A DNA stretch of 38,045 nt from Bacteroidales bacterium (GTDB taxonomy: Bacteria > Bacteroidota > Bacteroidia > Bacteroidales > UBA932). The notes beneath the pieces were generated by a model. It was not told the origin of the DNA. It was given only the letters and a program-made list of their open reading frames with translations, and ran no database searches. A program made the translations under genes and the position numbers. The DNA lies in contig JAFTFV010000060.1 in the NCBI GenBank assembly GCA_017458265.1, forward strand, positions 1 through 38,045, written 5' to 3'. Below, in pieces: positions 18,812 through 25,409 of this stretch; the first letter of the stretch is position 1; each line of letters begins with the position of its first letter.

Positions 18812-20155
18812 TTAAATCGTTCCCTGCTCGAGCATTGCGGTAGCAACCTTCATGAAGCCGGCGATGTTGGCGCCCTTCACGTAGTCTACTGTGCCGTCCG
18901 GCTGGGTGCCGTACTTGACGCACTGTTCGTGGATGGACTTCATGATGAAGTGGAGCTTGTCGTCAACTTCCTTGGCATCCCAGGAGATGTGTTCTGCGTT
19001 CTGGGTCATTTCGAGACCGCTTGTTGCGACACCGCCTGCGTTCACGGCCTTGCCGGGAGCGAAGAGGATACCGTTATGCTGGAAGAAGTGGATGGCACCG
19101 GGCTGGCAACCCATGTTGGAAACCTCGCAGCAGCACCAGCAGCCGTTAGCCTTGAGCTGCTTTGCATCGTCCTCGGAGAGTTCGTTCTGGAAAGCGCAGG
19201 GGAGAGCGATGTCGCAAGGGATGCTCCATGCCTTCTTGCCTGCAGTGAACTTTGCCTGGCCGGGGAACTTGTCTGCCATATCCTGGACCTTGTTGCGGTT
19301 GGATGCACGCATGACAAGCATGTAGTCGATCATTTCGGGAGTGATGCCGTCGGGAATTTCGCAGACGCCGTCAGGACCGGAAATGGCAACAACCTTTGCG
19401 CCAAGTTCGCGGGCTTTCTGAGCTGCACCCCATGCTACGTTGCCGAAGCCGGAGAGAGCGACTTTCTTGCCCTTGATGTCCTTGCCGGCCTTCTCGAGAA
19501 GGTGCTGGGTGAAGTAGAGGGCGCCGAAGCCTGTTGCTTCAGGACGGAGGATGGAACCGCCCCAGGTGCTGCCCTTACCGGTGAGAACACCGGTGTTGTA
19601 CTCGCGTGCGAGCTTCTTGTACATACCGTAGAGGTAGCCGATTTCGCGGCCGCCTACACCTACGTCACCGGCAGGAATATCCTGGTCGGGGCCTATGCAG
19701 TTCCAGAGCTCAAGCATGAAGGCCTGGCAGAAACGCATGATTTCGTCGTTGGACTTGCCGACGGGGTCAAAATCTGAACCACCCTTTGCACCGCCCATAG
19801 GGAGGGTTGTGAGGGCATTCTTGAAGGTCTGTTCAAAGCCCAGGAACTTGAGCATTGAAGGAGTTACAGCCTTGTGGAAACGGAGACCGCCCTTATAGGG
19901 GCCGATAGCACTGTTGAACTGGATACGGTAACCAGTGTTGGTGCGGACTTCGCCTGCATCGTCAATCCATGTGACGCGGAAAGAGAAGATGCGGTCGGGT
20001 TCTACCAGACGCTCAACGATCTTTGCCTTTTCGAATTCAGGATGCTGGTTGTAGACATCCTCGATAGACTCAAGAACTTCCTGTACGGCCTGCAGATACT
20101 CTTTCTCCAGAGGGTATTTGGCCTCAAGGCGTGCCATGATATCGGCTGTTTTCAT
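18812..20155 (-). CDS. gdhA: NADP-type glutamate dehydrogenase
   Basis: A 447-residue hexameric-type enzyme joining ammonia to 2-oxoglutarate. Family blocks seen: GPYKGGLRFHKAVTPSMLKFLGFEQ, PMGGAKGGSDFDPVGKSNDEIMRFCQAFM with the catalytic Lys, DIPAGDVGVGGREIGYLYG, TGKGSTWGGSILRPEATGFG, and the nucleotide-binding VALSGFGNVAWGAAQKA. Length fits the bacterial NADP-dependent group. It stands alone between two plus-strand operons with its own promoter at 20219-20250. Confidence 0.97.
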   Translation of the reverse strand: MKTADIMARLEAKYPLEKEYLQAVQEVLESIEDVYNQHPEFEKAKIVERLVEPDRIFSFRVTWIDDAGEVRTNTGYRIQFNSAIGPYKGGLRFHKAVTPSMLKFLGFEQTFKNALTTLPMGGAKGGSDFDPVGKSNDEIMRFCQAFMLELWNCIGPDQDIPAGDVGVGGREIGYLYGMYKKLAREYNTGVLTGKGSTWGGSILRPEATGFGALYFTQHLLEKAGKDIKGKKVALSGFGNVAWGAAQKARELGAKVVAISGPDGVCEIPDGITPEMIDYMLVMRASNRNKVQDMADKFPGQAKFTAGKKAWSIPCDIALPCAFQNELSEDDAKQLKANGCWCCCEVSNMGCQPGAIHFFQHNGILFAPGKAVNAGGVATSGLEMTQNAEHISWDAKEVDDKLHFIMKSIHEQCVKYGTQPDGTVDYVKGANIAGFMKVATAMLEQGTI

Positions 20156-20218
20156 AGTAAAAGAAATAATAATTGGTTATAGTTAATAATAAATAGGAAT
20201 TTCTGTTAATTCCGTTAC

Positions 20219-20250
20219 AAATTTAAATAATAAAAAGAGATTTCCCAATA
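20219..20250 (-). promoter_or_regulatory. Predicted gdhA promoter
   Basis: On the minus strand TAAATTTG (20226-20219) with ATTG (20250-20247) 20 bases upstream. The leader would be about 55 bases and very AT-rich. The remaining gap to 20338 holds the divergent promoter for the M49-like gene and nothing else I can identify. Confidence 0.45.
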
Positions 20251-20305
20251 AAAATGCAAGGAAAAAATAAATGCTCAAAACGTCGGTTATCTGAATGGAA
20301 ATTGT

Positions 20306-20313
20306 TAACTTTG
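20306..20313 (+). promoter_or_regulatory. Possible -7 box for the M49-like / DASS / porin operon
   Basis: TAACTTTG matches TAnnTTTG exactly and lies 24 bases before the ATG at 20338. A clear -33 box is not seen. Confidence 0.4.
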
Positions 20314-20337
20314 TAAGTTTTAATACTTAAACCAACA

Positions 20338-21933
20338 ATGAAAAAGTACCTGATTGCGCTTTTGGTGCCCCTGATGGTCATCACTTCCTGCGCACAGCAT
20401 CGTTCCAAGGCCGCCAGGCTCATGGCAAACTATGCAGAGGTGACGATTCCCGCTCCGGACCTTTCGGGCATCACCAACAATGGTAAAGAGGTTCTGAATC
20501 TATACCGTTTTGCGGCAGATGAGGCAGATGCCATATACTGGGAGCAGAACTTTGGTGACAAGTCTGTCATCGAAGCTCTCCAGGATCCTTCAGAGAAGGC
20601 CTATGCCATGATCAATTACGGTCCCTGGGACAGGATTGACGGCGAGCCTTTCATCGCAGGATACGGAGACAAACCCGCAGGCGCATGCTTCTATCCTCAG
20701 GATATGACTCCTACAGAATTCTCAGAGTATGCGGATCCCGCCAAGGACAGCCCCTATACCCTTATAACGAGGGCAGATGACGGCTCCCTTAAGACAGTGT
20801 GGTATCATGACGCATATGCAGACCACATTGAGAAAATCGCAGATTATCTCACCGCCGCTGCCGATATCACCATCAAGGAGAGTGTCCGCAATTACCTCCT
20901 CAAGATGGCTGAAGGTCTCAGGACCGACGACTACTATGAGGCAGAAAAGGCATGGCTGGAGATGACAGACTCCAAGATGGACCTTGTCATCGGCCCCAAT
21001 GAGACCGTGGACGACAATCTCTTCGGACGCAAGGCTTCTTTCGGTGCCTATGTGCTTCTCAAGAACCTTGACCGAACAGAAAAACTCTCCCGCATGGTCG
21101 AGAAGCTTCCTTTCTATCAGTCCATCCTTCCCGGAGAGGCAGCATATCATGAATTCGCTCCCCAGTCGGCATCCAACATCTTCTCCTGTGATGCCATCTA
21201 CTACGGCGGATATACCAACGCGGGTTATAAGGTGATTGCCATCAACTTCCCGTATGACGCCCGTCTGCAGGAGGAAATCGGCACCAGGACCATACTCTTT
21301 GACAATATCATCAGGGAGAAGTTCAACCGCACCCTCTTCCCTGCAGGAATGCTCCTGTTCGAAGGAGAGGATGCTGCCCATCTTGACGCCAATGCTTTCT
21401 ACTGGAACATCGTCTTCCGTGAAATCGCAAAGGGCCTTGGCGTAAAGGAAACCGTCAACGGACGCGGCACAGTTGCCGATGCCCTCTCTACCGAGGCTCT
21501 CACCTTCGAAAAGGCAAAATCCAACGTGCTCGGAACCTACCTCTGCGCCAAGGAAGTTGCCGATCACCAGATTGACGCACTCATCCAGAAGGAAGACGTC
21601 CTTGCAACATTCATTGCCAACGTCATCCGTTCCTGCCGTTTCGGAGATGCCGATGCTACCGGCCGCGCCAACCTCATGGTCTACAATTATCTCCTTGAAC
21701 AGGGCGCGATTTCCCTCAAGGAGTCAGGACGATATGCTATCGACTATGCCAAGACAGAGTCTGCAATCGAGTCCCTGGGCGCACAGATCCTAAAGATTCA
21801 GGCAACCGGCGACCTCGAGGCTGCAAAGGCTTTCACCGCATATTATTCCGTAGTCAGCACATCCCTCAAGTCCGACATCGTCCTTCTCGAGAAGGAGAGG
21901 ATCCCTGTTGACATCCGCTTCAAATACGAATAG
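20338..21933 (+). CDS. Peptidase M49-like (dipeptidyl-peptidase III-type) lipoprotein, zinc site lost
   Basis: A 531-residue lipoprotein (VITSCAQ lipobox, Cys about 18). The body resembles the Bacteroidetes M49-like zinc hydrolases: YGPWDRIDGEPFI, CDAIYYGGYTNAGYKVIAINFPYD, EKFNRTLFPAG, GLGVKETVNGRGTVADAL and GRANLMVYNYLLEQGA. Active members carry HEVAHGLG-type HExxH and a downstream E-x-x-KAD. Here the same place reads REIAKGLG (R361, K365) and FEKAKSN (E391, N396), so both His ligands are gone while the fold signature stays. It is likely an inactive, binding-type relative in the periplasm or at the outer membrane. It is 17 bp upstream of a carboxylate transporter gene. Confidence 0.8.
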   Translation: MKKYLIALLVPLMVITSCAQHRSKAARLMANYAEVTIPAPDLSGITNNGKEVLNLYRFAADEADAIYWEQNFGDKSVIEALQDPSEKAYAMINYGPWDRIDGEPFIAGYGDKPAGACFYPQDMTPTEFSEYADPAKDSPYTLITRADDGSLKTVWYHDAYADHIEKIADYLTAAADITIKESVRNYLLKMAEGLRTDDYYEAEKAWLEMTDSKMDLVIGPNETVDDNLFGRKASFGAYVLLKNLDRTEKLSRMVEKLPFYQSILPGEAAYHEFAPQSASNIFSCDAIYYGGYTNAGYKVIAINFPYDARLQEEIGTRTILFDNIIREKFNRTLFPAGMLLFEGEDAAHLDANAFYWNIVFREIAKGLGVKETVNGRGTVADALSTEALTFEKAKSNVLGTYLCAKEVADHQIDALIQKEDVLATFIANVIRSCRFGDADATGRANLMVYNYLLEQGAISLKESGRYAIDYAKTESAIESLGAQILKIQATGDLEAAKAFTAYYSVVSTSLKSDIVLLEKERIPVDIRFKYE

Positions 21934-21950
21934 TAAAAACAAAAGATATC

Positions 21951-23399
21951 ATGTCTGACAAGAAATTCAATTTCAAGTATTGTGTATGGCTGCCGCTGGT
22001 GCTTGCCATCACAGTCTTCCTCTGGGCCGTTCCCGTCAGTTTCTTTGGAATCGATGCCCTCACAGTGGTGCAGCAGAGGGTTATCGCCCTGTTCGTGTTT
22101 GCCGCACTCATGTGGATTTTCGAAATCATCCCTAACTGGAGCACCTCGCTTCTGGTTATCGTGATAGCGCTTCTCACCGTATCCAACAAGGGTATAGGCC
22201 TGTTCTGCGACCCGCAGTACGGCACCCTGGTGCCTTACGGCCGTATCATGGCCTCAATGGCAGATCCTGTCGTGATGCTGTTCCTCGGCGGTTTCGTGCT
22301 TGCCATCATGGCAGAGCGTTACGGCCTTGACGTCACCCTTGCAAGGGCCCTTCTGAAACTCTTCGGCACAAAGCCTGAGATTGTCCTCCTGGGATTCCTC
22401 ATCATGATTTCCGTGTTCTCGATGTTCATGTCCAACACCGCGACCGCCGCCATGATGCTTGCGCTCCTTACCCCGGTGCTCTCAAAGCTCCCTGCCGATG
22501 ACAAGGGCAAGGTGGGCCTTGCACTGTCCATCCCGGTAGCAGCCAACCTCGGCGGTATCGGCACACCTATCGGCACTCCTCCCAATGCTACCGCAAAGGG
22601 TGCACTGGAGCAGGCCGGCATCGATGTTTCCTTCGGCGAATGGTGCGTTCACATGATTCCTTACGTGATCATCATGATTCTCATCGCATGGATTATCCTG
22701 CGCATCTTCTTCCCCTTCAAGACCAAGAAGCTCGTCCTTGAAATCCCCGAGAGCAACAGGAAGAAAGACTGGAAACTCTATGTGGTATGGATTACCTTCA
22801 TCGGCACAATTCTTCTCTGGGCAACAGAGCAGATCACCCATATCAACTCCAACATTGTTGCACTCATTCCCCTTGGCGTTTTCACCGCCACAGGACTCTT
22901 CGGCAAGGAAGAAATCAAGGAAATCAACTGGAACGTGCTCTGGCTCGTAGCGGGAGGTTTCTGCCTTGGATACTGCCTGCAGGATACCGGTCTTGCAAAG
23001 GTTCTCATCCAGGCTATTCCTTTCGGCAGCATGTCCGTTGTCCTGGTGCTCATCATCGCAGGTCTCGTGTGCTACTTCCTTTCCAACTTCATCTCCAACT
23101 CTGCTACCGCTGCCCTTCTTATCCCTATCCTCATAGTGGTTGCAAACGGCATGGCAGACCCTGAAGCTGCAAACAACGCACAGTTCCTCGCCCTTGGCGG
23201 CACAAGCGCAATGATCATCTTTATCGCAGTGTGTGCATCCATCGCAATGCTTTTCCCTATCTCCACACCTCCGAACGCCATCGCATCGGCAACCGGCATG
23301 GTAGAGACCAAGGACATGACCAAGGTGGGCCTCATCATCGGCATAATCGGCTTTGTCCTGGGATTCTTCTGGCTTACGAAACTTTTCCCGTTCGCATAA
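21951..23399 (+). CDS. DASS/SLC13 (INDY-type) anion:sodium symporter
   Basis: A 482-residue inner-membrane protein with about 11 hydrophobic segments. The two SNT-type re-entrant motifs of DASS transporters are present: MSNTATAAMM with NLGGIGTPIGTPPNATA, and ISNSATAALLIP with FPISTPPNAIASATG. The second motif is SNS instead of SNT. Such proteins import di- and tricarboxylates (succinate, citrate), and some carry sulfate; the substrate here is not set by sequence. It lies between the M49-like lipoprotein and a porin-like gene, 1 bp before the latter. Confidence 0.92.
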   Translation: MSDKKFNFKYCVWLPLVLAITVFLWAVPVSFFGIDALTVVQQRVIALFVFAALMWIFEIIPNWSTSLLVIVIALLTVSNKGIGLFCDPQYGTLVPYGRIMASMADPVVMLFLGGFVLAIMAERYGLDVTLARALLKLFGTKPEIVLLGFLIMISVFSMFMSNTATAAMMLALLTPVLSKLPADDKGKVGLALSIPVAANLGGIGTPIGTPPNATAKGALEQAGIDVSFGEWCVHMIPYVIIMILIAWIILRIFFPFKTKKLVLEIPESNRKKDWKLYVVWITFIGTILLWATEQITHINSNIVALIPLGVFTATGLFGKEEIKEINWNVLWLVAGGFCLGYCLQDTGLAKVLIQAIPFGSMSVVLVLIIAGLVCYFLSNFISNSATAALLIPILIVVANGMADPEAANNAQFLALGGTSAMIIFIAVCASIAMLFPISTPPNAIASATGMVETKDMTKVGLIIGIIGFVLGFFWLTKLFPFA

Positions 23400-23400
23400 T

Positions 23401-24705
23401 ATGAAAAAGACAATCGCAATAATCCTCCTTGCTGTCATGGGCATCAGCACCTATGCACAGGAGACCCCCGCCAAGTTCAAGCTTTACGGTTTCATCCGCA
23501 ACTATGCGGTCATTGATTCCCGTGAGGTGAACGGCGGTACCCATGACCTTTACTACTACATGCCCAAGGACCAGCTCCTCAATGCCGCAGGTGAAGACAT
23601 GAATGACGGTTTCAACTGGAAATTCATATCACTTACCACACGCCTCGGCCTGGACATCTCCGGCTATGAATTCAACGGAATCAAGCTCGCAGGCAAGGTA
23701 GAGGCCGATTTCTACAGCCTCAACGGAACCGGAAGCGCCAATACTATTGCGCAGCTCCGTCTACGTCAGGCATACATGGCCCTTACCCACGAGTTTGAGG
23801 ATGGAGAGAAGCTCACCGTCAACATCGGACAGACCTGGCACCCCATGGCTGTAGACCTTCCTTTCGGAATCAACCTTGAAACCTGCGCTCCCTTCGGCCC
23901 CTTCAACCGCAGCCCTCAGGTGATGGCTCATTCCACACTTGGAAAGTTCACTTTCACCTATGGTTTCCTGTATCTGAGCCAGTATCTTCCCATGGATGCC
24001 CAGGCCAATGCCAAGAGCGTAGCTCCCTGGAAGTATGGCTTCCCCGAAGCTTATATCGGCATGACATACAAAGACGGCCCCTTCACCTGCAAGCTTGGCT
24101 TTGACAATGTCCTTTCCAAGCCCATCCGCACTGTAAAGGATGCCGCAGGAGACACTCACAAGGCAAAGGGCGCGCTTGATGCCATCACCGGATTTGCTTA
24201 TGCACAGTATGGCAAGGGCATGTTCCAGATCAAGGCAAAGGCTGCACTTGCAATGAGCGGTGAGCATATGAACATCCTTTCCGGTTACGGCATTGCAGAC
24301 TATGATGCATCCACCTATACATATACTTATACTCCCATGCGTGACCTTACCACTTTCGTGAGCGCACAGTATGGAAAGAAGTTCCAGGTTCTGGGTATGG
24401 TGGGATACATGAAGCAGCTTGGTACAAGCAAGGACCTCATGGGCAGCGCTGCCGTGGTTAATGCTACAGGAGGAAACCTCTGGCTCAATACTGCCGCCGC
24501 TGCCAACATCCAGCAGGCATTCCGCATGACCCCTACCGTCATGTGGAACATCGGCAAGATCCAGATGGGACTTGAGTACGACTACACCATTGCCGAATAC
24601 GGCAACAGTGACGCTGTGCGCAACGCCCGCGGCATCTATGAAGCCGGCAGCACGCACTGGCTTGGCAACCACAGGTTCATCTGGCTCTCCAAGTTCAATT
24701 TCTAA
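23401..24705 (+). CDS. Outer-membrane porin-like beta-barrel protein
   Basis: A 434-residue secreted protein (MKKTIAIILLAVMGISTYAQ signal). The mature part is rich in alternating aromatic strands from KFKLYGFIRNYAVIDSRE to the C-terminal NHRFIWLSKFNF, which ends in Phe as outer-membrane barrels do. The FKLYGFIR start and RLRQAYMAL resemble DcaP/porin-like barrels. The start at 23401 is set by the signal peptide; an upstream in-frame ATG lies within the transporter gene. Its position right after the DASS gene suggests it carries the same substrate across the outer membrane. Specificity is unknown. Confidence 0.8.
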   Translation: MKKTIAIILLAVMGISTYAQETPAKFKLYGFIRNYAVIDSREVNGGTHDLYYYMPKDQLLNAAGEDMNDGFNWKFISLTTRLGLDISGYEFNGIKLAGKVEADFYSLNGTGSANTIAQLRLRQAYMALTHEFEDGEKLTVNIGQTWHPMAVDLPFGINLETCAPFGPFNRSPQVMAHSTLGKFTFTYGFLYLSQYLPMDAQANAKSVAPWKYGFPEAYIGMTYKDGPFTCKLGFDNVLSKPIRTVKDAAGDTHKAKGALDAITGFAYAQYGKGMFQIKAKAALAMSGEHMNILSGYGIADYDASTYTYTYTPMRDLTTFVSAQYGKKFQVLGMVGYMKQLGTSKDLMGSAAVVNATGGNLWLNTAAAANIQQAFRMTPTVMWNIGKIQMGLEYDYTIAEYGNSDAVRNARGIYEAGSTHWLGNHRFIWLSKFNF

Positions 24706-25409
24706 TGAGTGCAGTTTACAGGGAAATACCGGCTCCGGAGTTTGAAGACATCCGGAGCCGTATCCTTTATGAGGACAATCACCTTCTTATCTTCAACAAG
24801 AGGGTGGGGGAGATAGTCCAGGGAGACAAGACCGGTGACGAGGCCCTGTCTGAGACCCTGAAGGCCTTCATTGCCAAAAGGGATGAGAAACCCGGCCAGG
24901 TTTTCATGGGCGTTCCGCACAGACTGGACCGTCCCGTGAGCGGAGTCTGCATCTTTGCAAAGACATCCAAAGCCCTCGAGCGCTTGAATGAGATGCTCAG
25001 GAAAGGCGATATCCACAAGACCTACTGGGCCCTTACGGCAAACCGTCCTGCAAAGGATGAGGATACTCTGACGGACAATCTGGTCAGAAATGAAAAGCAG
25101 AACAAGTCCTACATCGTCAAGGAAGGCGGAAAGGAAGCCAGGCTTGCATACAAGCTCATCGGCACAACCAAAACCTATTTCCTTCTGGAGGTGCAGCTTT
25201 TCACCGGACGCCATCATCAGATACGCTGTCAGCTCTCCGGCATGGGATGTCCGATTAAAGGGGATCTCAAATATGGGGCAAAGCGCTCAAATCCCGACGG
25301 CGGCATCTCTCTTCACGCACGTAATATACAGTTCATCCACCCCGTCAAGAAGACCGAGGTGGATGTAACAGCCCCTGTTCCGGATACGTGGAAAGGGATT
25401 CAGGGATAA
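24705..25409 (+). CDS. RluA-family pseudouridine synthase
   Basis: A 234-residue RNA-modifying enzyme. The catalytic motif HRLDRPVSGVCIFAK (about residues 72-86) holds the Asp that attacks uridine. LLEVQLFTGRHHQIRCQLSGMGCPIKGDLKYG is the conserved second half. There is no S4 domain; it fits the short RluA-type group that modifies rRNA or tRNA. It starts at TAATG, overlapping the porin stop, so it is likely co-transcribed although unrelated in role. Confidence 0.92.
   Translation: MSAVYREIPAPEFEDIRSRILYEDNHLLIFNKRVGEIVQGDKTGDEALSETLKAFIAKRDEKPGQVFMGVPHRLDRPVSGVCIFAKTSKALERLNEMLRKGDIHKTYWALTANRPAKDEDTLTDNLVRNEKQNKSYIVKEGGKEARLAYKLIGTTKTYFLLEVQLFTGRHHQIRCQLSGMGCPIKGDLKYGAKRSNPDGGISLHARNIQFIHPVKKTEVDVTAPVPDTWKGIQG

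Follow-up and report, generated by a model that had tools for sequence, protein, structure and literature searches.

The window, the whole stretch of Bacteroidales DNA that was analysed (38,045 nucleotides, from a genome of 2.13 Mb in 67 contigs), carries three consecutive open reading frames on the + strand, separated by gaps of 17 and 1 bp. Their coordinates agree with the three-gene cluster described in an earlier, sequence-only reading of this DNA. The features are as follows:

20306..20313, + strand: candidate promoter element TAACTTTG, matching the Bacteroidetes-type -7 element TAnnTTTG and the sole + strand match in 20101-24800
20338..21933, + strand: putative pseudopeptidase lipoprotein, 531 aa, a DPP III (M49) homologue without zinc site (Pfam, phmmer)
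20338..20391, + strand: predicted lipoprotein signal peptide with lipobox ITSC and Cys18, followed by AQHRSK (own sequence pattern)
21418..21432, + strand: R361-E-I-A-K365 at the position of the zinc motif HExxH (alignment)
21508..21525, + strand: E391-K-A-K-S-N at the position of EECKAD, with the third zinc ligand Glu replaced by K392 (alignment)
21951..23399, + strand: DASS-family (SLC13/INDY-like) inner-membrane anion transporter, 482 aa (TIGR00785)
23401..24705, + strand: outer-membrane barrel-like protein, 434 aa, which goes with one DASS subtype, with sub-threshold DcaP porin matches in some relatives

TAnnTTTG is the consensus of the Bacteroidetes-type -7 promoter element. The divergent neighbour, at 18812-20155 on the - strand, looks by eye like a glutamate dehydrogenase gene; it lies beside the cluster in many relatives, which may be plain synteny.

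Over residues 158-329 the lipoprotein gives a partial match to the Pfam M49 profile, at 26.1 bits against a gathering score of 21. With phmmer, residues 23-527 align with 6eom, the short DPP III of Caldithrix abyssi (5.7e-72), and residues 27-530 with 5zum (1.1e-60). These matches uphold the M49 homology suggested by the sequence-only reading, as do the two altered motifs that it reported: the 6eom alignment places HEISH opposite REIAK (361-365) and EECKAD opposite EKAKSN (391-396). The zinc ligands of the Caldithrix enzyme are His379, His383 and Glu412 (PMC5805324; its text prints the Glu as 442 in one passage and 412 in another, and the alignment count gives 412). Their counterparts in the window lipoprotein are R361, K365 and K392. 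The HExxH/HExxGH and EEC(K/R)A zinc site of family M49 is absent. The reading had allowed for an intact HExxH elsewhere in the protein; the full translation and the 6eom alignment rule this out, as no HExxH occurs anywhere in the 531 residues.

Homologues were grouped by their residues at the three ligand positions. Among 178 distinct homologues (229 records minus 51 sharing a central sequence, window protein excluded) there were 46 HHE, 40 RHE, 8 RHD, 1 RHK, 7 RQK and 76 RKK forms, and we refer to all those with Arg for the first His as R-forms. The sample leans toward the kin of the window protein because this was the search query; one source set is the best 80 of 265 relatives. The closest named relatives are Bacteroidales metagenome assemblies, and samples of rumen, omasum, reticulum or abomasum give many of these their names. 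Alignment A1 has 132 rows (40 HHE, 92 R-forms). At the position matching Tyr242, Tyr occurs in 40/40 HHE forms and 0/92 R-forms; at residue 441, His occurs in 40/40 and 0/92, respectively. We take these positions to correspond to Tyr318, the catalytic Tyr of human DPP III, and to its His568. Judged by sequence, the lipoprotein is a catalytically dead M49 homologue.

Median dN/dS is 0.10 for RKK (40 pairs), 0.08 for RHE (40) and 0.07 for HHE (32), as estimated by NG86 with synonymous sites near saturation and pairs with dS of at least 2.5 dropped. By this measure the pseudopeptidase clade is conserved and under apparent purifying selection. Sequencing error and pseudogene formation are excluded by the recurrence of the R/K/K triad in 76 distinct homologues and by their low dN/dS (median ~0.10), so the lost zinc site is, as first supposed, not a sequencing slip. 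A quickly built tree with 96 rows puts all 62 R-forms on one side of a branch with an SH-aLRT of 100. Rooted at the midpoint, it gives L200, an HHE protein from the same genus, as their sister. Among the 45 genomes with matching regions retrieved, 32 had R-forms only, 13 HHE only and none both. A sample of 295 genomes of the order gave matches in 182; at the 30 loci where the motif was read, there were two R-forms, one being that of the window. In a search for R-forms beyond the order, covering 395 genomes of the phylum, only that of the window passed E<=1e-140, a bar that would miss distant R-forms. Stages of four kinds, intact, RHE (intermediate), RKK (full) and fused, occur in one bacterial group.

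The R-forms are tightly linked to transporter genes. A transporter gene lies at most 174 bp away (measured between match ends) for 123/132 R-forms, 105 of these being DASS (three fused) and 18 AspT-family. None of the 46 HHE forms adjoins either kind (five have short flanks), and 20 further HHE loci had neither DASS nor AspT within stretches of 6.1-9.6 kb. Fisher's test gives 6e-34, which is not a fair probability since the rows are related sequences. Five AspT pairs out of the 18 are near-copies that come from a single genus. Linked genes share a strand except in two cases (L083, L135), with median gaps of 6-52 bp over four same-strand gene arrangements, and the linkage persists across differing surroundings, gene orders and the two transporter families. 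Pairing with AspT-family transporters by the same pseudopeptidase clade is new relative to the sequence-only reading. Four AspT-family partners (L215, L181, L188, L212) match PF06826 and TIGR01625 above cut-off; the others were called from tblastn matches to the protein of L215 (similarity 40-100% across all 18). The AspT-adjoining forms are 16 RHE, 1 RHD and 1 RHK. RKK and RQK forms have a DASS neighbour in 82/83 cases and an AspT neighbour in none. In the quick tree with midpoint root, the partner changes between DASS and AspT several times among the R-forms.

The best 80 of 265 relatives, a choice that favours close kin, gave 80 loci, and every one of them has a DASS gene no more than 1,500 bp from a lipoprotein gene; 12 of these loci hold two lipoprotein genes. 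The proposed tie of lipoprotein to DASS transporter is thereby supported, as it is by in-frame fusions (below). Starting from the transporter, DASS occurs at E<=1e-60 in 101/299 genomes of the family, and in 11 of the 29 DASS loci L216-L244 no lipoprotein match was found (flanks of up to 1.5 kb). Nine of these 11 retain the barrel. The lipoprotein thus supplements a pair of DASS and barrel, and some genomes can do without it. At L244 (genome G387), a remnant of the lipoprotein gene, with N- and C-terminal pieces only, lies at 1067-1406 just upstream of the DASS-barrel pair.

In three genomes of one clade (L156, L157, L158), DASS and pseudo-M49 form a single open reading frame of 994, 995 and 994 aa. 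A short linker joins the end of DASS (FPF) to the M49 domain, with no signal peptide or lipobox Cys at the junction; profiles confirmed both halves of the L156 fusion. L156 is an RHE form and L157 and L158 are RQK forms, so a complete R/K/K triad was no precondition for fusion. In VcINDY, the C-terminal residues are described as moving at the extracellular surface (PMC7553777, figure legend), which would make the fused M49 domain periplasmic, as is predicted for the lipoprotein. PMC6359215, PMC5413979 and PMC11782487 yielded no statement on the location of the DASS C-terminus.

Our lipobox pattern is present in 126/129 unfused R-forms and 40/46 HHE forms. At least two acidic residues at +3 to +5 were found in 6/126 R-forms and 1/40 HHE forms among those with a lipobox, and AQHRSK after Cys18 of the window lipoprotein contains no acidic surface-export signal of the kind described in PMC5080379. 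The lipoprotein signal is predicted to be of the periplasm-facing type. A surface SusD-like lipoprotein was considered and rejected, as the export signal is missing and none of the three genes has a Sus-family Pfam match.

The window DASS protein scores 242.1 bits against TIGR00785 (cut-off 198.6 bits). By eye it has the motifs SNT and SNS; two Ser-Asn-Thr carboxylate motifs are described for the DASS family, which consists of elevator-type transporters (PMC7553777). Its best matches among solved structures are PHO90 (1.7e-38) and VcINDY (2.8e-37). Because PHO90 carries phosphate, the ligand could be something other than a carboxylate, perhaps phosphate.

The barrel is a less constant companion than the sequence-only reading supposed. 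A survey of the three-gene linkage found the DASS linkage to be far more general than that of the barrel, which depends on the DASS subtype. Among the same 80 loci, it lies near DASS in 36 of the 42 whose DASS is at least 75% identical to that of the window (29 within 300 bp, 7 within 1,500 bp). At loci with a more distant DASS it was found in 1/38, plus one farther off. We therefore rejected the idea that the barrel belongs to a fixed three-part system. The window barrel protein has no Pfam match of its own, including to DcaP (PF19577), and a profile of its family found nothing at E<=1 among solved structures. Four of the 22 family members match PF19577 at E<=0.1. The best score was 21.8 bits against a gathering score of 27 (10 of the 22 members scored), so DcaP membership was not accepted. 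DcaP porins serve growth of Acinetobacter on carboxylic acids (PMC12338516). A second barrel gene, from another family (Porin_4/Porin_O_P match), lies near DASS at L033 (4013-5083), and its cluster also occurs in L007, L018 and L021.

To our knowledge, described DASS and AspT transporters operate without a dedicated periplasmic subunit. The reading that we favour, at slightly better than an even chance, is that the dead M49 protein serves anion transporters of the inner membrane as a dedicated partner subunit in the periplasm, probably capturing substrate as in TRAP and TAXI-GltS systems. A short DPP III would have lost catalysis through replacement of its first zinc His by Arg, together with the catalytic Tyr and second His. 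The lost peptidase would then have become the periplasmic partner of a DASS symporter at the window and of AspT-family permeases in sister lineages. Its two-lobed fold would close on an anionic ligand inside the old active-site cleft and hand the captured anion over to the transporter. Zinc-site loss, purifying selection, linkage, fusion and a periplasm-type signal can be read from the sequences, and from there we infer the physical complex, the ligand and the hand-over. C4-dicarboxylates and acidic amino acids are the substrate class shared by the DASS and AspT families, and such a compound is our guess for the ligand.

Substrate binding is suggested by the ancestral fold, by a recharged cleft and by the TAXI-GltS precedent. 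The domains of Caldithrix DPP III close on the ligand in simulations (PMC5805324, section 20). We defined the cleft as 21 substrate-site positions, taken from that section and the zinc ligands, mapped by hand via the 6eom alignment, plus residue 441. Mean side-chain charge in the cleft rises from -6.75 in HHE (to which zinc would add +2) to -3.54 in RHE/RHD and -1.12 in RKK-type forms, while charge outside the cleft moves the opposite way (-11.7, -19.5 and -18.9, respectively). Since the three ligand columns define the groups, we also left them out, which gives -5.75 (HHE), -3.54 (RHE/RHD) and -4.02 (RKK-type). The shift persists without the ligands but is smaller, and the ligands themselves make up most of the RKK gain. 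In conservation, random column sets were as low as the non-ligand cleft columns in 0/5000 draws for HHE, 156/5000 for RKK-type and 2299/5000 for RHE/RHD. The cleft thus exceeds random columns in conservation in HHE and RKK-type forms, not in RHE/RHD, which favours a selected pocket in RKK-type forms. The 92 R-forms in A1 keep E222 in 90, N303 in 91, E362 in 92 and E391 in 92. RKK-type forms (n=57) hold Y306 in 57, T441 in 56, G236 in 56 and Y292 in 55, all of which differ from the commonest HHE residue.

Several results count against a subunit role: the 11 of 29 DASS loci without lipoprotein, six R-forms without a nearby transporter, a lipobox already in HHE forms, fusions with an incomplete triad, the smaller charge shift without ligand columns and the unremarkable cleft conservation of RHE/RHD forms. 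Some of these fit the main rival, a reading that we consider distinctly less likely. In it the dead peptidase would bind no substrate and would stabilise, localise or tune the transporter, as 4F2hc/rBAT do with SLC7 through their glucosidase-like ectodomains. The make-up is equal, with a hydrolase-like ectodomain on a transporter (PMC8537225), although 4F2hc/rBAT have an alpha-amylase-type fold, their own transmembrane helix and another transporter family. Such a role would explain fusion and carrier switching equally well, and service to two different transporter families, the ordinary RHE/RHD cleft and the ability of DASS to do without the lipoprotein all fit it. A pure scaffold would not need the RKK-type cleft, where non-ligand positions have become fixed for residues that HHE forms seldom or never have, and where columns beat random conservation.

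A sensor or regulator that binds a periplasmic peptide or metabolite and gates the transporter, delivering no substrate, is improbable. It would account for the retention of the substrate-side E222 and N303, and a LysR-like protein cluster (by eye) occurs in 13 loci, with one LysR regulator confirmed by profile near the AspT-linked locus in G229 (L215). Pfam found no signalling domain in the protein, however, and fusion puts pseudo-M49 directly on the carrier. That linkage merely reflects co-regulated nutrient genes, with the lipoprotein acting alone, seems less probable still. Nine R-forms are unlinked, three of them (L054, L057, L063) being the second lipoprotein gene of a DASS cluster and six being alone (one near a contig end); these six and the many solitary DASS genes agree with this view, but the in-frame fusions, the persistence of linkage in varied surroundings and the unlinked state of the intact homologues examined do not. 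Surviving enzyme activity based on a different metal or chemistry is very improbable: both the HExxH Glu and the leading Glu of the second motif occur in 132/132 rows of A1, including 92/92 R-forms, but RKK forms have three basic ligands and 92/92 R-forms lost the Tyr and second His.

The partner subunit that we favour would combine a known principle with an apparently undescribed component. The binding proteins of TRAP/TTT systems, which like the proposed pair join a binding protein to a secondary carrier, are of the DctP, TAXI and TctC types, and none is an M49 component. The window lipoprotein belongs to none of these families, as Pfam gives M49 alone above cut-off, and its relatives are M49 by profile. 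The membrane partner is from the same families, by profile, as solo DASS (VcINDY, PHO90) and AspT transporters. Compared with short DPP III (6eom, 5zum), homology is full-length and E222, N303, E362 and E391 are common to both, whereas zinc ligands, catalytic Tyr and second His are replaced. Linkage and fusion of an extracytoplasmic protein and a carrier are present, as in binding-protein-dependent secondary transporters. The membrane parts of TRAP share the DASS fold (PMC12344293). The closest precedent is TAXI-GltS (PMC12344293), where a lipoprotein gene likewise lies beside an acidic-solute secondary transporter, with fusions in some genomes. In that system the partner, a binding protein of TAXI type, forms the N-terminal part of the fusion; in ours a dead M49 protein is C-terminal to DASS, and it pairs with AspT too. 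In the LaINDY exchanger of the DASS family, Arg and His are proposed as stand-ins for sodium ions (PMC7553777), and R/K/K in place of zinc may be a parallel by inference. The papers listed by our searches of open-licence literature include none on an M49-transporter partnership or a binding protein for DASS or AspT, in line with the sequence-only reading, which knew of no system of this make-up.

According to the authors of PMC12344293, soluble binding proteins were known before TAXI-GltS from TRAP and TT transporters alone, and further classes would test whether the elevator mechanism permits their use. DASS with a peptidase-derived partner, if true, would be such a class and would illustrate a route from enzyme cleft to binding or scaffold subunit.

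Three further observations concern the wider family. The window's genome encodes another, long M49 protein of ~681 aa (G000:C14 27331-28485, L116). Eleven loci (L044, L046, L048, L051, L053, L054, L057, L063, L072, L073, L077) hold one RKK and one RHE pseudo-M49 gene with a single DASS, which looks like two distinct partners sharing one carrier. In genus g164, from another family of the order, near-identical RHE pseudo-M49 genes (L085, L146-L149) each lie 6 bp from an AspT-family gene, possibly through horizontal transfer.
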